NCBI GenBank assembly: GCA_022925895.1
Contig: JAKSYS010000314.1
Span: 1-64,000, forward strand
Reading direction: 5' to 3'
From: Fragilaria crotonensis
Lineage: Eukaryota > Bacillariophyta > Fragilariophyceae > Fragilariales > Fragilariaceae
DNA: 64,000 nt
Under the pieces are notes generated by a model that worked only from the letters and a program-made list of their open reading frames with translations, searched no databases and was not told the DNA's origin. Shown piece by piece: positions 493 through 40,010 of the stretch. Each line of letters starts with the position of its first letter. Position 1 is the stretch's first letter. The position numbers and the translations under genes are program-made.

Positions 493-1480
493 ATGAGCGG
501 CGAAGGTAAGAAGGCACTGGAGACTATCAAGGTCATTCCATTTTATGGAACGGATACTTCGAAGGGCGGACTTGAACCGAGGGAGTTCTTTACGAAGGCG
601 GAGGTCTTTGCGGCTACAAGAGGTTTCAAGAAGGCAATGTTGGAAGAGAAGATCAAGGAAGAGTTTGCTTTCAAGGAAGACTTGACGGAAGAAGAACAGT
701 TGTTGGTCAAGCAAGATGAAGACGCAAAACATTTTCTGATCATGTCCTGTCGTGGCGATGCGTTTGCGATTATTGAGTCTCAGGAAACCGCATTCAAGAT
801 GTATCAAGCTTTGAAGAATAGGTATGATTCAAAGAAGACAAAGGATTTGGTCAAGGCGACGACAAAATTGGAGAAATGCTTCATGAAACATGACTTTGAT
901 GACCCTTACATATGGATTTTGGAAATGGAACGTTTGAATCGCGATGTCGAGAAGTGCGAGAACGGAATCAAGAGGAGCGATGAGCAAATGCAGGCGACTA
1001 TTTTGTCGAGACTTCCAAAAAGACGCTATGAATCAGTCATCACATCTCTAAATGGAAAGATCGGATCGAACGACTTCACGTATGATGATTTTGTGTCGGA
1101 AATTTATGTTCACTATGAAATGTTCATTGAACCCTACAAAAACAGGTTTGCAGAACAGACAAAGGGTAAGCATTTAGCGCTCAACACTGTTTCTGGCAAG
1201 GGTGGATGGAAGGCATTCAAAGGAAAGTGTAATAAATGTGGCAAACAAGGCCACAAAGCTCGAGACTGCAACAGTACAGGTGAGAATAAAAACGCAAATT
1301 TAGGCAAAAAGTTCACAGGAAAATGTTTCAAGTGCGGAGACATGGGACACATGGCAAGAGATTGCAAGAAGGTCGGATCTACTGCGGAAAATGGTATGTT
1401 TGTCGGAATGTCCATTGCAGGTCGTGGTAAGACGGTATATGAAGACAGTTTGAAAAAGGACCAAGCAACGGTTGATATGA
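493..1480 (+). CDS. gag region of copia element A
   Basis: Gag-like protein of the copia family (UBN2-type N-terminal region) that would form the nucleocapsid and bind element RNA. It begins MSGEGKKALETIKVIPFYG. It carries two CCHC knuckles, CNKCGKQGHKARDC and CFKCGDMGHMARDC, encoded near 1228-1370. An acidic, Lys/Glu-rich stretch follows before the protease. Boundaries are approximate; this belongs to a broken element. Confidence 0.85.
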
Positions 1481-2319
1481 ACAAGGTCGCGATGAAAACT
1501 TGGGAGACATTGCAGAGGCAAATAAGACCAAGGTCAGTACAGAAGAGAGTAAGAAAAACAGTGAAACGGACATTGAGGGAAGCCCTAAGAAAAGCATTGA
1601 AGAAGTTGATGTTGAAGATAACTCGTTTGCGAAGAGACGCAAAATCGACGAAATTAAGGAGAAGGAGCAGAGAATGTCCTGGTATGATATGTGCGCGACA
1701 AGTAACGAAGAAGAAGAAGAAGAAGATGATGATGATCCGGAATTAGAAGAAAAGAATGAAGACTCGGAGGTTGAAGTGTTTGAAGTAATTGACTTAACTG
1801 CAAGTGAGGTTGACTTAACGGAAAGTGATGACGAAGAGGTCGAAGAGATTGTTAAGAAACCCGAGAAGAAGAATGACCCCGATTTGTTTAATGAGAATGA
1901 GAAGACAGAGCAGACACGAATGAAGAGAGGCTTGTTTTATGAAACCGACGAAGAGGAAGACACAGACCAAACTGAGTACTCAGAGGAGCACGGACAGTAT
2001 GGTAATGTCGTAAATGGCGAATTTTATATTTACTCTGGGAGTACATGCAGCACAAGCGTAGAAAGAGGTACAGAAATTATTGTCAATGAGACCAATGAAA
2101 AAGAAAGGAATGACACTAAAGACATGGAGAAAGACGCTGAAGACATAAAAGAAAAAGATATGGAAAGTACTGGAAAGATGGGTGCACTGGATATTTCGGA
2201 CAAAGATATGGAACAAAACCACGATATGAAAAAAGAAGAACAAGTGTACATGGTTTTCAGAGCTCAGCGTGAAACTAAACTTGAATTTCCCAAGTGGAGA
2301 AGTAAGGAAAGAGACAAGA

Positions 2320-5300
2320 AAGAGAGTTGGTTGATGGATTCCGGTGCAACAACTCATGTGGCTACTAACTCCAAGATGATGACGAACGTAAGGACCGCAA
2401 TGAATGGTCAATTTGTGCGTGTCGGCAACAATGCTACCATGCAAGCAACTGCAATTGGTGACCTCACTTTGATGCAGGGAGGAACCAACAAGAAAATGTT
2501 TCTTAAAGATGTAATGGTTGTTCGAACTTTGCAAAGAATCTGATCAGTGTGGGACGATTGACAGATCATGGAAACGCTTATGCGACGGATAAGACAGGTG
2601 CAAGGTTGACAAACGAGAACGAAGACGTATTGAATTTTGAGAAAGGAACTGATGGAATGTTTTATTTCTTTGCAACACGCGTTAAAGAAGGAAAAGAGGT
2701 AAACAATGTTGAAGGAAGTAATGAGAAAGGTTCAGAAACAAAGAAGAAAATGAGAAAAGAGATGGACATCAATGAAGCCCACCGCAAATTTGGGCATGCA
2801 ACTGAGAAAGTGGTTCGAGAAATGTTGAAAACGTTGGACATTGAACCTGTGGGACAAATCAAGACATGTGACGGATGCTCGCGTGCAAAGGCTACTCAAA
2901 AGCGGACTAAAAAGGTCACAACTGTTACTGCAGACAAACCCGCGGAACGTTTATTCATGGATACGAGCGGACCGTACAGTGAAACAGCCGCAGGAAATCG
3001 ATATTGGTTTAAGCTGGTTGATGACAAAACCCGCAAGTCATGGGACTTTTATGGTGCTAGGAAGAGTCAATTGAAGAATGTCTTAAAGACTTATTGGACA
3101 AATTACGCGCAGCGGACTATACGGTTAAGTTCATACGGTGCGACAACGCCGGTGAACACATTGCTGATCTGAAGAAAATGTGCGAAGGGAGTATGGTATC
3201 GTATTGGAGTATACTGCCCACATACTCCCCAGCACAACGGAGTCGTGGAACGAATGTTTGCTCGAGATGCCAAACGAGCTTTGGCAATGATGTTGTCTGC
3301 CGGTTGGACAAAGACGATGCAGTCCAAACTTTGGGCAGAGGCAACCAAGACTGCTGCACTTATTGGCAACTCCATCTCAAACACAAGGAGTTCTATCCCT
3401 CCTGACGAGTTATTCTACGGAAAACCAGTAAACATTTATCCAAATTTGATTGAGTTCGGTCGCGTTGGATATGTGACGAATCGACAAGGTATGATCGGGA
3501 AGTTTAAGGAAAGGAGCACGAAGATGGTTATGATTGGCTATGCCGAAAACCATTCGCGGGACGTTTATCGGATGTATAACCCCCTAACTAACAAAGTTGT
3601 GGAGACGCGTGATGTGTACGCTTGGGCGGATTTTACTCACGATGCGAACGACATACGCATGACAATGGCACAAATGTTCGATCCCGAACTTGTCCAAGGA
3701 CAGGAAAGTAACACTCCTGAAGCGCATTCAAATGAGGACGTTCCAGCAGCTGCAGACAAGCGGAAAACAACGTCCATTTGATCCCCGAATACGACGATGA
3801 AACGCCGTCCCTACTTGAACGGGACAACCTCCTAGATGCTTCTGGAGCAGGGAGGATGAATGACGATTACATTCCAACATATGACACCGAACGGGAGTAC
3901 TCGGATATGATTAATGATGAGGATACGAACCAAAGAGTGACGAAGTCGAAAATTCACCAAATCGACAAAACTCTACAATTCAAAACAACGAAGATGATTC
4001 GAGCAGCGACGATGAAAGCGAAGCCAAAGGAGTATCAGATTCATCTGATGACGAAGAAAGCATTGTATTTGGCGAAGAAACTGAGATGAGAGACGACAAT
4101 GAAATCGTCAATGCTCCAAAAGCAAAAGAACCAAAAACTACGAAACTTGACAAAGAAATGAAGAGACTGGGAGCAACTCCCGCAGTCATTGAAGACGACA
4201 CTGGGACACGAACAAGAAGTCGGGCACGGATTGATCAAGCAGCATTCAATACCATGCTTACGTCTGACCCAGGAGAACCTAAGACATTTAAGCAAGCCGT
4301 GGAAGGCCGTGAAAAGGACAAATGGGTACCATCGGCAAAAGCCGAGATCAATAATTTCTTGTCGCGAGATGCGTGGCAGAAATTCCCAAGGAAAAATCTT
4401 GACAACAGGAAACCGATACCAGTGAAGTGGATATTCAAAGTCAAAGAAGAACAAGATGGGAGCAAACGGTACAAAAGTCGGATTGTGCTTAAAGGATATG
4501 TCATGGTGCCGGGAGTGGACTACACAGAGTCATTTTCCCCAGTTGCAACAGATACAACAGTACGTACAGCGATTGCTATGGCACTGTACAGACAAGATGA
4601 AAAATGGACTGTTGAAATGATCGACATTGAAGCGGCATTCTTGAACGCAGAACTGGAAAGTGACAAACCAGTATATGCAGAATGGCCAGAAGGAATGGTG
4701 GATCTGGGATTCATCACAGAAGGAGAACGACAAAAGTATTGTATCAGACTCACCAGGGCAATGTATGGAGGTGTGGATGTTCCAAGGCTATTCATGAAGA
4801 CGTTATACAAATACCTGACTGGAGAAATGAAAATGTCACAGAGTGAAGTTGATCCATGTCTGTACTACTGGAAGGACAAAGCAGGAAATGCTACTTTACT
4901 TGCAGTTGTACATGTTGATGACGTGGCACTTATTGGTGATAAGACAAACATTGAAAATTCAAGACAGAATTGAAGAAGAGATTCAACATCTCAGATCTTG
5001 GACAGTTGAAGAAACACTTAGGAGTCTGGTACGAGTGGAAGAAGGATGACAACGGAGAAATTTATGTGGTGGCTAGCATGAACAAACTGGAAGAAGAAAT
5101 TGTAAGTGCATATCAGGAGACAGCAGGAAAACCGGCAAAGGATGCGATTACTCCGGGATTTCCGGGACAGCATTTAACAAAGAACAAAGGCGATACAGTG
5201 AAGATGACCGAATACAGGTCATTGGTCGGTAAGATTATGTACCTGATGACAAAATTGGCACCAGACATTGCCAATCCAGCAAGAGAACTGGCACAACATT

Positions 5301-5890
5301 TATCTAATCCAGGACACGAGCATTGGAAAGCGCTAGAACGATTGGTCGGACATATAAAGATGAAGCCATATGAAGGATTGGTGTACAGGAGACCAAAAGA
5401 GCTGAGACCGATATCTATTGTTGACTCAGACTATGCCAAGAACATAGACGACAGAAAGAGCATATCGTCCGGTCTACATACACTGGGTGGAACACTAGTA
5501 CATTGGGAATCGAAAACCCAACATGTTGTGACTCTATCAAGTACAGAAGCGGAATATATTAGTTTGGCGAAAGGCGCATGTGAAAACAAGTTCATGATGA
5601 TGATGCTTGACGAGGTCATGCGAAACCCATCAGAAGAAAGACTTATTGGAAAAATCTATGAAGACAATCTGGGAGCGATTTATTTGGTTAAGAACCAACA
5701 TGTCGGAGCAAGAACAAAACACATTGATGTGAGGGCACATTTCATTCGAGAGCTAGAGGACACTGGATATTTGAAAGTGCAATTTGTTCGTTCAGAAGAA
5801 AATGCCGCAGACATTCTGAACAAGAACTGCCCTGACAAGTTACATACCAAACACGCCCAGAACATGAGAAACGGAACTCTAGATTGCTGG
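2320..5890 (+). CDS. pol region of copia element A (PR-IN-RT-RH), broken
   Basis: Copia-order polyprotein region. Protease motif WLMDSGATTH lies near 2330. The integrase zinc-binding segment with HRKFGHAT and CDGCSRAKAT lies near 2780-2900, with the integrase core after it. Reverse transcriptase spans about 4380-5260, from VKWIFKVKEEQDG through the active-site segment VHVDDVALIG. RNase H spans about 5380-5860 and includes SSTEAEYISLAKGACE. It would have made and integrated the cDNA copy. The region is interrupted in several places and is given as approximate domain positions only. Confidence 0.88.
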
Positions 5891-5898
5891 AGGGAGGA

Positions 5899-6357
5899 TG
5901 TCGAGGATAAGCGTTTACTAACCAACGACAGTACCGGTGAGGATGTACTGGCTGTGCAAACAGACAGACATCCAGCACCGGAATCCCGCTTCCGTCGTGT
6001 GTACGCGGAACTACGAACGGCATTCCGTTGGCAACGCGCACGATCCAGAATCTACAGTATCCGAACGACAGTAAATCGCCCGACAAGAAACTACAATTGT
6101 TTGATGATGTAGATGGCGATTGGACGACTGTAAGTAAGAGAGAAAGGAGAGTTAAAAGAGGAGTTAAGATCATCTCCAACCAAGACAAGAGATCCCTGTC
6201 TGGGAAGGTTGGCAGGACTGATCTGAGACAAGGAAGTAACTAAAGTAGTTACAATATTTGGAACCGGAATTTAGAGTCGGTAGTATTGTCAGTTTATCTA
6301 CAGTAAGGTAGAGTTAGTACGTGCGTACGAGGCAGGAGATATCTGGGATTCTCAACA
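5899..6357 (+). repeat. 3' LTR of copia element A
   Basis: Direct repeat of 2..456, preceded by a polypurine tract at about 5889-5898. It ends in TCTCAACA followed by unrelated sequence. Confidence 0.92.
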
Positions 6358-21944: not shown

Positions 21945-24900
21945 ACCATCCTTGAACGAGTCGGCGAACTCGTTCGAAGCTTTCGCGATTCAGGCCTTTG
22001 GTGAGCATGTCAGCCCACTGTTCCTGAGTATCGACTTTGATGATTGCAATGGTGCCGTCGCGAACGTGTGCCCAAAAGAAATGCCATTTGACTTGAAAGT
22101 ACTTCGTTCGATTGGTAATTCGTTGGTTGGTTGCCAAAAGAAGTGCACCATTGTTGTCCTCAAACACACGGCACTTGACAGTAGACGTGAGAGTATCAGG
22201 AAGTTGCAAGCCATTAATGAGTTCGATGAGCATGGTCCGCAATGGAAGGAGCGTTCGCATGGCGGAGCTGAGCGCGGAGTACTCAGCTTCGAGCGTCGAC
22301 AGAGATATTTCAGACTGGAGATGCGATTTCCAAAGGATCGGGCACCCTCCGAGAGTGATGATATAACCTGTCCTCGACTTTGCGGAGCTTGGCGAGGAGT
22401 CGGGGTCGCGACGATGCAATCCTGCGAAGTCTGCGTCCACATAGCAGTCCAAAGTGAGATCGCCGGTTGGCTTGACGATCATGCCCTTGTCGTACGTCCT
22501 TTGGAGATAACGAACGATCGTCTTAATTGCGGAGGCGTGACTCTTCTTCGGGTTGTGAGAGAATCGAGCAACCTGACTGACTGCGAACGCGATATCGGGG
22601 CGAGTGTTCGTCGAAAGGTAAAGGAGCATCCCAACCACAGAGCGATAGCTCCAAGACTCCTGCATCGGAGGACCATCGGGTCGATTCCCAAAGCGGCTTG
22701 TCCAGCGGGAGTCCAATTGCTGTTACTCATCTTCATCCCTGTCGCCTCTTGAATCTTCTGAATTAGGCCTTTCTGTGTTAGCGTCAGGGTGCCGTTCTTG
22801 GGATCCTTCACGAAGTTGATGCCCAAGAAATCAGTGAAGGTTCCTTCCTTCGTGAAACTGAAACCTTTGGCGTCGAGATTCGCAAATAATTCGTCGAGAT
22901 CGCGTTGATTTGAAAAAGCGATGCCCAAATCGTCAACGTAGATAACCACCATGATAGTGTCCTTGTAAAGAAGGCAAGGGTCATTTGCACAGCTCTTGAA
23001 CCCTTCATCGCGTAGTGCATCGGACAGATGTTCATACCAGAGTCGCGGTGCGACACTCAAACCGTAGAGACTTTTCAAGAGTTGCAGACACGTAGATGAC
23101 CCACGTTCGGAACGAAAGCCTCGAGGCAAGTGAATCCATACTGGATCGCTGAGTGGGGCCTGTACGAATGCACTGCTGAAATCGATAGTGCAAGTTTGCC
23201 AAGCAAGTGTGAGTGACAGTACCAGAAACAACCGTACCGTACTCCAAGCCACGACTGGGGCAAACGTTTCTTGCTCAGTTTCCTGCAAGTCACCTCGTAC
23301 GCAGTACCGTGCCTTGTACTTGCTTATGGCACCGTCAGGCGTGCGTTTACGCCGAAAGACCCAAGTACCTGGCAGGATTCGTGACTTCGCATCGGCAGTT
23401 GGTACTTCTTTCCAAGTCCCATTTTTCTCCAACGACTTGATTTCGGCTTCTGCAGCCCTCAACCAATTTTGGATGTTCTCGACGTCCGACATGGCTTCTT
23501 CGAAGGTCAAAGTGTCGGGGTCGCTCACGCTTGCCTTGTTCGCTTGTGACATGGCGCTGCTGTCTTCAATGGCTTCGGTGAGGAGCCAATCGAAGATGAT
23601 GTCATCCATTGTAAACAAGTAACCTCTCCCTTGTTGGCCGTCGTATCCGAGACGATCGGGAGCCTTGCGAGTGCGAGTTGAACGACGAGGTGAGTGCCTT
23701 TGCTGTTCGTTGGGTGCCTGCCTTGTGACGGCTTCGATCTCATCGTGCGTTTCGATTGAAGCAGCTGGGGATGGAATGTCATGAGATGCAGGACGAAGTG
23801 GAGACTGGAACAGTTGCGTCGGTGTCGGAGGCTGAGGATCCTGAATTAAGTGAGGCGGAGGCGCCACCGTTGGAGTTGATGGAGGGGACTCTCCTTGGAG
23901 TTAACAATGGTGTCGAGGAACTGGAGGTTGCGTCGTCGTCTCGTTGACTGGAAGCTGTCGTTGCGTTGCGTCAACAGGAGTTCTTGTCGGAGGAGGTTCG
24001 ACGGGTAGCGCTGACGGTGGAGTTGCTGCGTCGATGGCGGTCGCGATGCGTTGCTGTTGTGAGAGTACATCTTGCTCTCTCGAAATTTTCAGTCTCAACA
24101 ATCAACCGCTCTTGGTCCTCGTCATCCAGAATGTACTGGTAGGTCGAGTCGCGGAACATACGTTTCCAGCTGTCTGCGTTGAAGTTCGGAAGGTCGTCGG
24201 CGGAGGCCGGAACAGTGGCAAACCAATCGTCGAAGACGACGTGGAATTGTGGCGTTATGTAACCCGTTTGAGGGTTGAGGACAATTGGGACTGTGATGGC
24301 GTGCTTCGGTGAGAAGCCCATGTTGATCGTTCGAGTTGATCGCGGAGTCCAACGAGGCAACTTTTTGCCATCGGATATCATCTTGTCCAAGACGTAGACA
24401 GGGCAACCCCAAACGTGGAGATTGTTCAGCTTTCGCTGCTCCCATCGTGTTTTGGTGAACAGGTCGGCAGGACATAAGCCAGTTCTTGGATCAGGAACAT
24501 GGTTGACCAAAAAGACTGCGTGATTGACTGCCAAGGGCCAAAGTGTTGCGTCCGCGATCGATGGCCAATGAATCGCTGCGTGAAGCATCATCGTGCGAGC
24601 GATCGCCATGATTGTTCGGATGTTTCGCTCAGCGATGCCATTGTGGTGGTGTGCACCAACGCCAGCGAACCTCATGATTTGTGCGAATGTCGAAAGGTTG
24701 CGAGTGAATTCGGCGGATGTGAAAATCTTGGAGTTGTCGGCCAAATACTCTTGCGGCACAACTCCATACTGGCGGCAGGTAAGTTCGAACTTTTCCTTTG
24801 CTTTCAACGTCTCGTGTGTGTTGAGGTTGACTTGGAGTTCGACATGGACGAAACCGGAGGCGTGGTCCACGAAGATGCAACCTCCCGTATACATCTCGTC

Positions 24901-25750
24901 GGCTTTGGTTTTTCCAGCGGAGGTAAGAAGTCGTCCTCGCGTGCTGCAGATGAAGTGATCGACAGAGATTCGATGCCCGGGGATAACGTTGTCGGCCTTG
25001 AGGATGTTCGTTCGGTCGCGAATGATGGTTGACGGCGTTGAACCAGGGATAGGACGTCGATGCTGCTTGCCGTACTGGCAAGCTGCACACTTTGGAAGGT
25101 TCGTCAGCTTGCAGGCTGCGGAATGAAGTCGGCGACTTGCTTCCGTTTGACTCAAGACTCCAGTTCTCAACAAGAACTGGATCTTCTTGAATCCAATGTG
25201 TCCGAGGCGATAATGCCATCGCAGAAGTTCCTTTTCGGCTTCGCTGAGGTTGTGATTCGTCTCATGGACCTCAGTGATCGTTGCGACGAGTGCGTCGGCC
25301 GCTTTGAAAGGATCCTGACCGTTGAAGGCGTCGGACGTTGGCAAGTTGTTCTGCGGGTTCACGAGTACCATAACTGCTCCTCGACTTGAGTCTCCAGGAA
25401 CGCCGCTCAAGGTAAGTCGATTCGATTCGACTTTGATCGTCTCGCCTTGGTAAGTCTGCAAGAGACTTGTGGTTGAGAGGAGTCGAACCTTAATGCCGGG
25501 TACGTAGAAAGCGGGAACCTTGATCATTCGCAGGTTGCCGTTCGTGTCGTGAACCGCCCAAGTGACTTCGCCTTGACCCTTGATTTGAAGTCCGCGGGCT
25601 ATTCCCTTGAGTTGGGTGATAGTGCCGGGGCTTCGCATCGTGCCCTGAAAGTCTTCAGGGTCGGGCGAAATGGAGATGCTCGCGCCAGAATCCCAAATGA
25701 TGGGAGCACTGTTCGTCGCACTTCCAAGAGCGTTTCGCATGCGTGCTGGC
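21945..25750 (-). CDS. pol region of copia C (PR-IN-RT-RH)
   Basis: Protease near 25690 (IIWDSGASISISPD). The integrase HHCC segment (WHYRLGHIGFKKIQ; CAACQYGKQHRRP) lies near 25050-25250, with the core through about 24350. Reverse transcriptase (WVFRRKRTPDGAISKYKAR; YVDDLGIAFS) lies at about 22800-23440, and RNase H (STLEAEYSALSSAMRT) at about 21945-22450. Domain order is standard copia. Limits are approximate because the coding region is broken in a few places. Confidence 0.88.
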
Positions 25751-26549
25751 GCTTGCAATGCCATTCGAAGCGTGGCGGTGCAAGCGAGATTGACGTGGGA
25801 GATGATCTTGTGAGCAGCGTTGCGTTGCTGTGTTGTCCATGGTGCAGGGACGAATGCATCAGGGGCGCCGTCGGCAGGAACGGGATGGTATTTCGGTCGA
25901 CGTGCTGGCTTTTTGCGTTGAGTTTGCGAGCGACGACTCGAAGTTCCGAACTCTCCCTTGTTGAGCGCATTCGTTGCGTACGGAGAGCGACGCGTGCGAA
26001 GGCGTTGCGTCTGACGTTGGAGCAACAACGTTCGCGTCTTCAATTCGTCAAGGTCGCGAAGACTTGTCTGCCTTTCGAGGGTCGGTGCGTTGAATGCGTT
26101 CTGATGACGTCGTTTGCGAAGACGATAGGGAAGAGGAGCCACAGCCTTGCGATGTTGAACTTCGCGTTGAGGCTTGAGTGAAGTCTTCAAGAGCTTAGCG
26201 AAGCGTCGGCGTTGCTTGCGAGTGAACGAAGTGCTTGTGGTTGCGTTCGTTTCTTGTTGGCAGGCTTCTGGCTTCCAAAAGGAGGTGGCCAGGAGTGCGA
26301 GCCAAAGGGCAGGAGCAAGGAACAGCGTTGGTTGCTCGAGGAGCACTTGACGAAGCGTGTCAACAATCGACGTCAGCAACAATGTCCATGGAATCGAACG
26401 TAGAGCATGGACTGCCAAGTTTGAACACTTCGGGATGACAAGACAAACGCCACAGAGTAGACGAGTAGAACCATAGCCTTCGAAAATAAAAACGTATAGA
26501 TTGATTCGAGCGCCGTAGACTGTAGTTTCTTGGCTGGGTTGTCGAAATC

Positions 26550-35598: not shown

Positions 35599-35726
35599 CC
35601 CACAACCCACAACCCACAACCCACAACCCACAACCCACAACCCACAACCCACAACCCACAACCCACAACCCACAACCCACAACCCACAACCCACAACCCA
35701 CAACCCACAACCCACAACCCACAACC
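35599..35726. repeat. (CCCACAA)n tandem repeat, about 18 units
   Basis: A perfect 7-bp tandem repeat of 128 bp, TTGTGGG on the other strand. It is G-rich and 7 bp like some telomere repeats but is not a known telomere sequence. Confidence 0.95.
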
Positions 35727-36273: not shown

Positions 36274-37746
36274 ATGAGTGCTGCATCGGATCTTAAACGC
36301 TTTCCTCATGATTTAGGAGGTGATGCAAAGCATTTTGCTCCAATAGACACATCCAATAAACCACTGTTGCACTGGGAGCAACAGTGTCATTCGTTATTTG
36401 CAGTGTTGGCAACCAAAGGGATTCTCACGACAGATGAATTACGTTTCACTGTCGAAGGCTTAACACCGTCCCAATATGCTGACTGGTCATACTACGAAAG
36501 GTGGAGCGCGGCCACTGCAACTCTCTTGCTCGATAAGGGACTGATCACGCATGATGAGTTGCGATTGGCTCTCTTTGGACCAACGAGCAAGAATGATGCT
36601 GCTGTCCCAGCATCGCGTTTTCAGCCCGGGGATGCGGTACGTGTGCTCCAATATCATGAGAGCGTCCAATGGCGTCGACCGCACATTCGAACCCCGGGAT
36701 ATATTTATGGTGTGGCTGGCGTCGTCCAAGATGTATGCGGTACTTTTGGAGATCCTTCGTTTCTAAGTCTTGGCCTGGAAGCACCACTGGTGTACCTCTA
36801 TCGAGTTTCGTTTCAAATGAAGGACATTTGGCCAGAACATGAATCCACGTCTAATGATGTGGTCAGTGTGGAGGTGTATGGACAGTGGTTGGAGTCCAGC
36901 ACTGAGACGACTGGACATGCCTTTGAAGATGCCTTGTTGTTCGATCATACTGATGTTGGACGTGACTGTGCTCCGACGGTGGACGATCATCATCATCAGG
37001 ACAGTCACGATCATCACCACGATCACGATCACGATCATGATCATGATCATGCCGATCATTCGCACGATCCGAGACCTTTCGTGGAAGAGCGCGCTGTCCG
37101 ACTTGAAGGCCCTCCTCGACCTGGCAAGGAACTGCACCAGGCTCTCATGCGCATCCTTTTGGATCGACAAATTGTTTCAGAGGATGATGTGCGAATCATG
37201 ATGGAACGCCTTGACACGGCTGGAGAACAATTGCTAGGAGCGTCCTTGGTAGTGCAGGCCTGGCTGGTTCCTGACTTTCGACAGAGATTGCTCGACAACG
37301 CGAACGAGGCGGCTAAAGAACTCGGGATCAATGCCTCCAATCCAAATGCCCCAACAGTCCTATCAGTTGTTGAGAATACTCCCCATGTTCATAATTTGGT
37401 TGTGTGTTCGCTCTGTAGCTGTTACCCGAGCAGCTTGTTGGGGATCGCACCGTCATGGTACAGAGCGTCCGAATACCGAGCACGAGCGGTCCGAGAACCT
37501 CGTAAGGTATTGCAAGAATTTGGTACTCCTCTCAAAACGTCCACTCTCCTTCGTGTTCATGATTCGACTGCCGATCATCGCTACCTCGTTTTACCGGAAC
37601 GGCCATCTGGCACGGATGGGTGGTCGAGTGAGGAACTCCGTGCACTGGTTACACGAGACTGCATGATTGGTGTGACGGTACCACAGATTGCATCGATGCC
37701 GAAGTCACCACTTGTCGAGGATACGACTGCCGGTACTCTTTTGTGA
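36274..37746 (+). CDS. Fused beta-alpha nitrile hydratase with His-rich linker
   Basis: Hydrates nitriles to amides. Intact, single exon, 490 residues. Residues 1-215 match the beta subunit: HDLGG near the start, WSYYERWSAATATLLLDKG, then FQPGDAVRV and HIRTPGYIYGVAG with YLYRVSF, as in the beta C-terminal barrel. Residues 239-266 are a His/Asp linker (HHHQDSH and repeated HD). The rest matches the alpha subunit, with the metal claw CSLCSC at 378-383 in VVCSLCSCYPSS, then APSWYRASEYRARAVREPR and a terminal TRDCMIGVTVP. In bacteria alpha and beta are separate; a beta-alpha fusion with a His-rich linker is known from the choanoflagellate Monosiga brevicollis. Ser in the claw is usual for Fe-type enzymes, but Tyr after it is usual for Co-type, so the metal is open. 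No activator gene lies nearby. Confidence 0.93.
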   Translation: MSAASDLKRFPHDLGGDAKHFAPIDTSNKPLLHWEQQCHSLFAVLATKGILTTDELRFTVEGLTPSQYADWSYYERWSAATATLLLDKGLITHDELRLALFGPTSKNDAAVPASRFQPGDAVRVLQYHESVQWRRPHIRTPGYIYGVAGVVQDVCGTFGDPSFLSLGLEAPLVYLYRVSFQMKDIWPEHESTSNDVVSVEVYGQWLESSTETTGHAFEDALLFDHTDVGRDCAPTVDDHHHQDSHDHHHDHDHDHDHDHADHSHDPRPFVEERAVRLEGPPRPGKELHQALMRILLDRQIVSEDDVRIMMERLDTAGEQLLGASLVVQAWLVPDFRQRLLDNANEAAKELGINASNPNAPTVLSVVENTPHVHNLVVCSLCSCYPSSLLGIAPSWYRASEYRARAVREPRKVLQEFGTPLKTSTLLRVHDSTADHRYLVLPERPSGTDGWSSEELRALVTRDCMIGVTVPQIASMPKSPLVEDTTAGTLL

Positions 37747-38141: not shown

Positions 38142-40010
38142 ATGACGATGACAACGATCGCGATACTCCGGCTCCTGCTTACGCTTCTCATTACCTCTAC
38201 ATGGGCTTGCACAGATGTGTTGGTCACACCTGAAGCATCGGAGGATGGATCTGCCATGATTGCCTACAATGCCGATTCAGGGGCGATGATGGGCTTGTTG
38301 TATCATTACCCTCCTACATCCGGTAAGGGAGGAGAGGAGCGACGAATCTATGAATGGGACACGGGGGTGCGTGTTATCGTGTTTCTGTGATATCGCAGCT
38401 TCTTTGGATTTGACCTTACCGACTAATGCTTTTGTACTCTGTATACTTGATGTTCAATGCCACAGAAATATCTTGGAACGATCCCCGAGGCGAACACGAC
38501 ATACAACGTTGTGGGCAACATCAATGAGCACGGCCTGTGCATCGGAGAATCTACCTTTGGAGGAGTAGAAGTGCTCTCGAGCCAGGAAGGAGCAATCATG
38601 GATTATGGTTCGCTAATCTATATCACGCTGCAACGATCGAAAACGGCTCGCAAGGCGATTCACACGATGGTCGCATTGCTAGATGAGTACGGCTATGCCT
38701 CCGAGGGTGAGTCCTTTTCGATTGCCGATCGATCTGGAGAGGTTTGGATAATGGAAGTGATTGGCAGAGGATCTTCCTTTGGAAAGTTGGGGGCTGTATG
38801 GGTGGCTCGCCGTGTTCCTCCAGGCTACGTGACTGCGCATGCCAACCAAGCACGAATTCAAACCTTTCCTCGAGACGATCCCGACAATTGTATGTACTCT
38901 GACGATGTGGTAGATGTTGCCGTTCATTACGGCCTCTTTCCACCGGATGCGGATCCCTTAACTTTTTCCTTTTCGGATGTGTACTGCCCAGTGTCTGCTC
39001 AAGCGGCTCGAATGTCAGAAGCTCGAGTCTGGTCAGCATTCAGCGAGATCGCTGACAATACAGGAGAATTTCGAAAGCAGCATTTGGAATATGCTACTGG
39101 CCGAGACATCTCCAAGCGAATGCCCCTGTGGATTCGACCCTATAAGAAAATGTCTCTCAAGGACCTCATGGCTGTAATGAATAGTCATTACGAAGGTACT
39201 GAGTTGGATTCCTCGCTGGATGTCGGTGCTGGACTACACAATGCCCCCTATCGTCCCCGTCCACTTGCGTGGTCCTATGAAGGCAAACACTATCACAATG
39301 AGAGAACCATTGGAGTTCAGCAGACTGGTTGGAACTTTGTGGCTCAGATTCGATCGCACATGCCGCCACAGTTGTCAGCGATTACATGGTTTGCTGTCGA
39401 CGACAGTTCGACGGCTCCTCGTGTCCCCATTTATGGGTCAAGCCGCCAGATTAGTGCCGCGTATTATGGTAAAGGAGCCCAAGATGGCGTAAAGGAACCC
39501 CTGCTCACATTTGATATCACAAAGGCCTTTTGGGTTCAAAACATGGTTTCTAACTTTGCCTACAGTCGATGGTCTGACATATACCCGATTTTAAGAGCCA
39601 AGATTGATGGCATTCACGATGCCTTCATCGATGCTATCGCTCAGACTGACAAGGACGCACTTGAGATTTACAATACCCAAGGTGTCCAGGAAAGCATAGA
39701 CTACGTGACGAATTATGGTGTGGCAGCAGCCAACCAGTTGCACGGCGATTGGTTCCAATTCTATGGGGAGCTCTTTGCACGATTCCGCGATTTTTTTGAG
39801 ATTGTTCCGAGCGATTCCACCAAAAGTGGGTGCAGCGTGAAGGAGAGCGGAATGAGTGATGAGTGGAAGAAACGGATCGTCGATGAGACGGGTGATCACT
39901 ATAGCATTGCTAGCGACCACCAACAGCCCTCTTCGGAACACTTGCATGATGACAAACAGCATAGTCATGGGAAACAAGGAGGATTACGAGTGGGTGTACA
40001 ATTAAAGTGA
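38142..40010 (+). CDS. Secreted C69-family dipeptidase
   Basis: Peptidase of family C69 (PepD/secernin type), an N-terminal-nucleophile hydrolase that cleaves dipeptides. Two exons, 38142..38366 and 38466..40010, are joined by a 99-nt phase-0 intron with donor GTGCGT and acceptor TGCCACAG. The join reads WDTGKYLGTIPEANTTYNVV, as the family predicts. The product is 589 residues. A signal peptide (IAILRLLLTLLITSTWA) ends right before Cys23, so cleavage exposes the catalytic Cys in CTDVLVTPEASEDGS. NINEHGLCIGESTFGG and the SFSIADRSGEVWIMEVIGRG core are typical. The C-terminus is His/Lys-rich (HLHDDKQHSHGKQGG). Likely secreted or in an endomembrane or vacuolar compartment. Confidence 0.9.

Follow-up and report, generated by a model that had tools for sequence, protein, structure and literature searches.

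A fused betaN-betaC-alpha nitrile hydratase in the diatom Fragilaria crotonensis, probably derived from a three-gene bacterial operon

The genome of the diatom Fragilaria crotonensis (assembly GCA_022925895.1) encodes a nitrile hydratase (NHase) in which the two parts of the beta subunit (betaN and betaC) and the alpha subunit form a single chain. The gene lies in the window analysed here, a stretch of 64,000 nucleotides (contig JAKSYS010000314.1, positions 1 to 64,000 of the forward strand), and it is real, intact and of an already known kind. We conclude that the gene is probably nuclear, encodes a cobalt-type NHase of the diatom and arose by fusion, in the existing order, of a three-gene operon without an activator gene. 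The points that deserve attention are this likely operon origin, a lack of activator that may have been inherited with it, and a Ser in the metal claw.

Fused NHases of eukaryotes have been described before. The Monosiga brevicollis enzyme with its His-rich stretch was reported in 2008 (Foerstner; PMC2603476), and Marron et al. (2012; PMC3323583) described fusions in at least nine species from several supergroups, including stramenopiles and one diatom, with VCT claws throughout. The novelty that the sequence-only reading attached to a stramenopile copy was therefore overstated.

Gene structure and domains

The gene is a single open frame of 490 codons (36274..37746, + strand; 490 aa), annotated as a single-exon betaN-betaC-linker-alpha NHase from the open frame, the Pfam matches and codon usage. 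An in-frame TAA lies six codons 5' of the ATG. The longest open frame in 20 mononucleotide shuffles of the window has 203 codons, so we judge the frame to be long beyond chance. Three domains follow in order: the NHase beta N-terminal domain (residues 11-98; 36304..36567, +; PF21006, 72.2 bits against a cut-off of 21.5, E 4.8e-20), the beta C-terminal domain (residues 111-207; 36604..36894, +; PF02211, 54.1 bits against a cut-off of 27.7, E 2.2e-14) and the alpha domain (residues 287-468; 37132..37677, +; PF02979, 238.5 bits, E 4.5e-71), which also matches NHase alpha chains in fold. Beta and alpha share one frame in a eukaryotic genome, with beta first, as the sequence-only reading had it when it proposed an intact eukaryotic NHase with the beta-linker-alpha plan of Monosiga.

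Two beta arginines have counterparts here. Arg57 (36442..36444, +) aligns with the conserved Arg of the solved beta chains 4fm4_B and 3qxe_B and is presumably the counterpart of the catalytic beta Arg52/56. Arg139 (36688..36690, +) aligns with the Arg of the H-x-R motif in the same two chains, and we take it to correspond to the second beta Arg that binds the claw (141/157). A catalytic role of beta Arg52/56 is described in a review (PMC7193024). All three Pfam domains score above their curated cut-offs, and the three claw cysteines and both claw-binding beta arginines are kept in alignments to solved chains. From these features, we conclude that the gene is a member of the NHase superfamily and predict that its product is an enzyme.

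The more specific NCBIfam models place the protein below their cut-offs, both those for NHase (TIGR01323 and TIGR03888; alpha 222 against 249.85 bits, beta 113.4 against 152.2 bits) and that for thiocyanate hydrolase gamma (TIGR03887; 190.9 against 291.45 bits). Two three-gene relatives, from A. pusense (L013) and A. rubi (L015), are likewise under the NHase alpha cut-off. The protein starts near the conserved HDLGG at residue 12 which, with the upstream in-frame stop, leaves no room for a long targeting peptide. Thus, we infer that the protein resides in the cytosol.

An AlphaFold model (mean pLDDT 75.2, pTM 0.64, 19 alignment rows) is confident for alpha, which matches NHase and thiocyanate hydrolase chains with TM scores by target of 0.77-0.90. 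The beta part fits whole solved beta chains poorly (TM 0.35-0.39, rmsd 13-17), and it is the less trustworthy part of the model because the underlying alignment (A3), anchored on three bacterial betaN-alpha fusions, misplaces the last helix of the betaN rows and the end of the betaC rows. Two MAFFT alignments (A2 and A4) placed bacterial beta pieces on the alpha domain and were rejected. Residues 212-278 (36907..37107, +) have pLDDT under 50 and are predicted to be disordered.

Genomic context

The NHase gene is present as a single copy in the 62-Mb genome; no second copy was seen there, although introns or divergence could hide one. Its codon usage agrees with that of the four other long open frames of the window (three of them with a Pfam match), with a pooled RSCU r of 0.73, whereas the other two forward frames of the gene gave 0.23 and 0.34 in the same comparison. 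Other parts of the window encode a C69 peptidase, ZPR1 and copia-type reverse transcriptases. We identified 19 matches to silicic-acid transporters in the genome, three of them within one open frame, which points to a diatom, very probably a pennate one. These three units form a multi-SIT gene of 1456 codons (G000:C97:29749-33762, +); such genes are known from diatoms, some of them pennate (PMC6114903).

The C69 peptidase is the next gene downstream (38142-40010, +), with an apparent single intron near 38370-38480 and a His-rich tail at its end. A perfect CCCACAA tandem array of 18.3 copies (35599-35726) precedes the NHase start by about 550 bases. In the subset of frames scanned, frames for gag and reverse transcriptase of copia-type retrotransposons were found at 493-6112 (+) and 22479-26418 (-), both upstream of the NHase gene.

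An origin from a phage or virus was also considered and rejected. A tblastn search against phages gave no match at E<=0.01, and in IMG/VR seven stretches fit a pattern, none of which was confirmed.

Metal claw and pocket

The metal claw, CSLCSC (residues 378-383), is preceded by V377 and followed by Tyr384 (37405..37425, +), as read from the sequence and aligned to solved chains. Two claw motifs are distinguished in the literature, CSLCSCT for Fe-type and CTLCSCY for Co-type enzymes (PMC2770081 and PMC2667541). The diatom claw, CSLCSCY, matches neither: it has Tyr384 where the Fe-type motif has Thr, and it keeps the Tyr of the Co-type motif with Ser in place of Thr. The earlier description of a claw that mixes the Ser of the Fe type with the Tyr of the Co type is thus accurate. 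The codon for Ser379 is TCG, so that a single base accounts for the difference between Thr and Ser. The VCT claw, reported to be uniform in eukaryotes but not a defining feature, is VCS here.

Among the 202 bacterial alpha rows collected (see below), 184 have CTLCSCY, ten CSLCSCT, four CTLCSCF, three CALCSCY and one CSLCSCY; the last is one of 113 among rows from outside the plasmids and a Thr-biased scan. The CSLCSCY row (L209) and the three with CALCSCY are alpha frames of thiocyanate-hydrolase-like loci of the mycobacterial family (L205, L206, L207 and L209). Such variation among related rows suggests that the second claw position drifts in the class with Arg or Lys after Tyr-Pro (YPR/K).

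Ser379 corresponds to the change made in T109S, a crystallised mutant of the Co-type NHase from Pseudonocardia (PDB 1ugr). In work by Miyanaga in 2004 on the mutants 1ugr and 1ugs, the change of Thr to Ser reportedly left the enzyme near wild type, with cobalt and activity kept, and the change of Tyr to Thr (Y114T) is said to have lost both. Since Tyr384 is kept in the diatom protein, cobalt appears to be a likelier metal than iron.

The next selectivity position also differs from that of relatives. Ser386 (37429..37431, +) aligns with Trp in YPW-type NHases and with Arg in thiocyanate hydrolase (Arg136) and three-gene relatives; the PDB mutants 3vyh (W116R) and 3vyg (R136W) are altered at this same position. 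Tyr-Pro is followed by Arg or Lys in 94/98 three-gene rows and by Trp in 71/97 two-gene rows; the remaining two-gene rows, all but six, are Fe-type, FPW or YPF/YPH. The diatom protein thus carries neither the YPR/K signature nor the Arg of thiocyanate hydrolase. The substrate range may be altered as well, and the claw Ser and Ser386 probably represent lineage-specific changes. No other eukaryotic NHase with a Ser claw was found in the literature on diatom NHases, eukaryotic fusions and claw motifs that is available without subscription. Relative to that literature, a Ser claw in a eukaryote, joined to a Ser that is neither Trp nor Arg at the next selectivity position, appears to be new.

Bacterial relatives

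The comparison set is bacterial only and holds no other eukaryotic NHase. It draws on a prokaryotic genome scan (80 of 592 confirmed loci taken in), whose patterns, CTLCSCYP plus a second motif, bias the sample to Thr claws, and on family searches of 398 genomes of the phylum Pseudomonadota (61 matched) and 201 genomes from the family to which locus L078 belongs (73 matched), with chosen regions added. The resulting 202 alpha rows comprise 98 three-gene loci, 97 two-gene loci, three betaN-alpha fusions and four unresolved cases. The full betaN-betaC-alpha fusion occurs in none of them, and 80 of the 98 three-gene loci have the gene order betaN-betaC-alpha. A tblastn search against plasmids gave 178 records, none at 60% identity or above; among the best plasmid matches are loci with beta split into two genes. 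Three plasmid three-gene NHase operons (L011, L013 and L014) adjoin an aquaporin gene; genes predicted to serve cobalt uptake (HoxN/NixA or CbtA/CbtB) lie within these clusters or next to them.

The diatom alpha is 42-52% identical to seven three-gene alphas (47-52% for four of them) and 40 and 43% identical to two two-gene alphas; the best match among the collected rows is L024 (55.5% over 182 aa). The sequence-only reading had suggested a homology search and tree with eukaryotic and bacterial enzymes. Run against the bacterial NHases, a concatenated tree of 45 rows has a 100/100 branch with 16 mostly two-gene rows on one side and 29 rows on the other; the diatom is among the 29, as sister to L190 (98/87) and next to L024. 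The midpoint root of the tree is no guide to which class is older. At 15 diagnostic columns the diatom has the state of class III (YPR/K) in eight, that of class II (YPW-type) in none and another state in seven; in a held-out check, class III rows had at least 0.40 of the class III state and class II rows at most 0.19. Against this placement, one AU test of two does not reject the diatom row at the base of the two-gene clade (p 0.112 for the full 45 rows; p 0.0354 once six long rows are dropped). Its own branch is also long (1.16-1.49), and in an alpha-only quick tree none of the starred sets comprising at most half the rows contains it. A tree joining it to two Fe-type rows was rejected (AU p 0.000468). 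The spacing between betaN and betaC is 64 in the diatom, against a three-gene sum with a median of 62 (range 43-88, n=62), 67 in nine two-gene rows of Fe type and 80-98 in 31 other two-gene rows; we regard this as a weak argument because 81 rows gave no result in the motif search and the Fe-type rows come close.

Placement of the diatom protein in the three-gene class is likely on these comparisons, not proven. The betaN, betaC and alpha parts are separate genes in that class and fused in the diatom, so we count the gene as a relative or descendant of three-gene class III and not as a member.

The link has a precedent. The three-subunit NHase of Streptomyces canus (Guo et al., 2020; PMC7329996), with the order AnhD-AnhE-AnhA and no activator gene found, takes up cobalt without an activator, with AnhD (betaN) as the chaperone, and its authors called it similar to eukaryotic NHase. 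The tree of Marron et al. (2012; PMC3323583) sets eukaryotic against prokaryotic types, and the words thiocyanate, SCNase and "three subunit" are absent from its text.

His/Asp linker

The 28 residues between beta and alpha (residues 237-264; 36982..37065, +) comprise 14 His and 10 Asp, which agrees with the earlier estimate of a His/Asp linker of about 28 residues. The codons are mixed (8 CAT, 6 CAC, 8 GAT and 2 GAC) and hence do not form a single uniform repeat of recent origin, and the pattern (GAYCAY)4 occurs at only three places in the genome.

Similar tracts are widespread in bacteria. By a measure of at least four His in the 15 residues upstream of the alpha core, which dropped 47 of the 202 rows as too short, an N-terminal alpha tail rich in His was found in 72/92 class III rows, 32/60 YPW-type rows and 0/3 Fe-type rows, and a control stretch inside alpha gave 0/202. 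The tail is therefore common to both bacterial classes and not unique to class III. In the sister row L190 the genes stand in the order betaN-betaC-alpha and the tail of alpha is rich in both His and Asp, and the gamma subunit of thiocyanate hydrolase (PDB 2dd4) has a DHDHDHDH tail ahead of its alpha-like domain. Given these bacterial tails, the linker is best read as the retained N-terminal tail of a bacterial alpha subunit. An invention of the linker in eukaryotes, as proposed from the sequence alone, is rejected because bacterial alpha tails already have the tract.

In three bacterial loci a beta part is joined to alpha across a His/Asp tract, which is short in L051. These betaN-alpha fusion frames (L094:3629-4969, L082:3944-4957 and L051:3902-4933, all +) have no betaC in the fetched locus, and a betaC homologue above the cut-off was identified elsewhere in each genome. 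Marron et al. (2012; PMC3323583) saw no prokaryotic fusion.

The same source treats the His stretch as a character of opisthokonts and reports no His-rich stretch in the linkers of Fragilariopsis cylindrus, E. huxleyi and Aureococcus; that of the diatom F. cylindrus is short and without bias. Taken as the related diatom that the sequence-only reading had named as a check, F. cylindrus refutes conservation of the linker and leaves conservation of the fusion standing. A His/Asp linker in a diatom appears to be new relative to the literature searched.

Activator

As noted previously, no bacterial-style activator gene is adjacent to the diatom gene. No homologue of P14K-type activators was seen in the genome, where the homologous beta-N family matches the NHase gene alone at E<=1; introns or divergence could hide one. 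In bacteria, a profile built from six activator-like genes (five two-gene YPW-type and one YPR-type, L038; the counts are partly circular for those six) detected such a gene beside alpha in 78/80 two-gene YPW-type loci, 7/7 two-frame YPR/K loci, 0/10 Fe-type loci and 9/94 three-gene YPR/K loci (2/66 with full flanks and 7/28 with short flanks). Known activators of Fe-type enzymes belong to another family than that of the profile. Since 64 of the 66 full-flank three-gene YPR/K loci lack an activator-like gene, its absence appears to be usual for the bacterial kin of the diatom gene, except in actinobacterial thiocyanate-hydrolase-like loci, and can no longer be taken as special to eukaryotes.

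Two COG0523 proteins with a CXCC motif are encoded in the diatom genome (L004 and L006). One of them, a CobW-type protein (L006:1096-3237), has a long insertion rich in Ser, His and Asp.

Origin, maturation and alternative explanations

We predict that the enzyme converts nitriles to amides (R-CN + H2O -> R-CONH2) as a cobalt-type NHase. The genes of an activator-free three-gene bacterial operon were probably fused without a change of order, and the former N-terminal tail of alpha would have become a flexible tether. Metal insertion would need no dedicated activator, which is what has been reported for S. canus with its three subunits, and the betaN domain may serve as a chaperone within the same chain. 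Such an in-order collapse would account for the linker as well as for the lack of an activator. A role in nitrogen salvage or nitrile detoxification in the cytosol is our guess. A bolder and distinctly tentative proposal is that the protein is a self-maturing eukaryotic NHase, in which betaN acts in-chain in the manner of AnhD subunit swapping, the His/Asp tether allows alpha to move from a loading to a catalytic position and back, and the Ser claw and Ser386 mark a changed choice of metal or substrate.

Several other explanations bear on the linker and the metal. The linker could be a working metal store that passes cobalt or iron to the claw in place of the bacterial activator, a function that the sequence-only reading had hinted at in suggesting that it may load or buffer the metal. 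Its content of His and Asp, the mixed codons, the rarity of (GAYCAY)4 in the genome and the His-rich bacterial tails at the same place are in keeping with this idea. We nevertheless consider it unlikely, and the suggestion fares poorly, in that the His17 tract of Monosiga is described in a review as dispensable for metal incorporation (PMC7193024), an engineered beta-alpha fusion with a two-residue linker kept activity (PMC4709657), the linkers of F. cylindrus, E. huxleyi and Aureococcus do without a His-rich stretch (Marron et al., PMC3323583), and many bacterial enzymes carry the tail and an activator together. A real switch to iron, making this a Fe-type eukaryotic NHase, would fit Ser379 (Ser is found in all 10 of the CSLCSCT rows among the 202), the Fe-like spacing of 64, the best PDB match of beta (Fe-type 4fm4_B) and the two CXCC proteins of COG0523, the superfamily of Fe-type activators. 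We think it improbable: Tyr384 is the Co-type residue, the tree with two Fe-type rows is rejected (p 0.0005), the residue drifts in the YPR class (L209 and three related rows), and the Thr-to-Ser mutant reportedly kept cobalt and activity. COG0523 proteins, moreover, are widespread in organisms that have no NHase.

The identity of the gene can be doubted in two other ways. It may no longer encode an NHase, being either a fused descendant with another activity (e.g., thiocyanate hydrolysis) or a decaying enzyme. The scores below the NCBIfam cut-offs for NHase alpha, NHase beta and thiocyanate hydrolase gamma, the Ser at 386 in place of Trp or Arg, and Tyr146 where Arg is common in relatives point that way; the kept claw cysteines and beta arginines, the intact frame and the equally low alpha scores of the three-gene L013 and L015 make it an unlikely explanation. 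A recent bacterial transfer, or bacterial contamination, is very improbable. The gene lacks an intron, and its closest relatives are bacterial in a comparison set that is bacterial only, but the full fusion is absent from all 202 bacterial rows, the nearest bacterial alpha is just 55.5% identical, codon usage follows the neighbours, and ZPR1 and copia elements in the window, with silicic-acid transporters in the genome, speak for a diatom.

Descent from activator-free three-gene operons, the origin that we favour, bears on two long-standing questions about eukaryotic NHases: why the fused parts come in their order, for which an inversion after transfer was once invoked, and why the activator is missing. 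If this descent is correct, neither needs a special event, and the S. canus maturation model would become directly testable in eukaryotes. The His-rich stretch would become a question about bacteria rather than eukaryotes, the bacterial tail being widespread and apparently without an explanation, and the Ser claw would be a natural counterpart of the engineered mutant of a cobalt enzyme.

Comparison with known systems

The diatom protein shares with the eukaryotic fusions of Monosiga and others the single chain, beta before alpha, an intact CxLCSC claw and the lack of a known activator. Like Monosiga and other opisthokonts, it has a His-rich stretch between beta and alpha, unlike the diatom F. 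cylindrus with its short, unbiased linker. Earlier eukaryotic fusions have VCT claws, whereas Ser replaces Thr here. The S. canus NHase, known here by description (the Streptomyces locus compared was L011), has beta divided into an N and a C part that precede alpha in the same order, and no activator gene was found for it; it differs in consisting of three separate proteins, with no beta fused to alpha. The thiocyanate hydrolase of Thiobacillus thioparus (2dd4) is a class III relative whose gamma subunit starts with the DHDHDHDH tail, but its subunits are separate, it has Arg136 where the diatom has Ser386, and the diatom protein scores under the TIGR03887 cut-off. Two-subunit Co-type NHases (Pseudonocardia thermophila 1ire and Pseudomonas putida 3qxe) have the same fold, the Tyr after the claw and the same beta arginines, but differ in their two genes, usual activator, Thr claw and Trp at the position of Ser386, and lie across the 100/100 branch. 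Fe-type NHases (Rhodococcus N771 and Comamonas Ni1) share the Ser in the claw, but have Thr rather than Tyr after it, and a clade that joins them with the diatom row is rejected.
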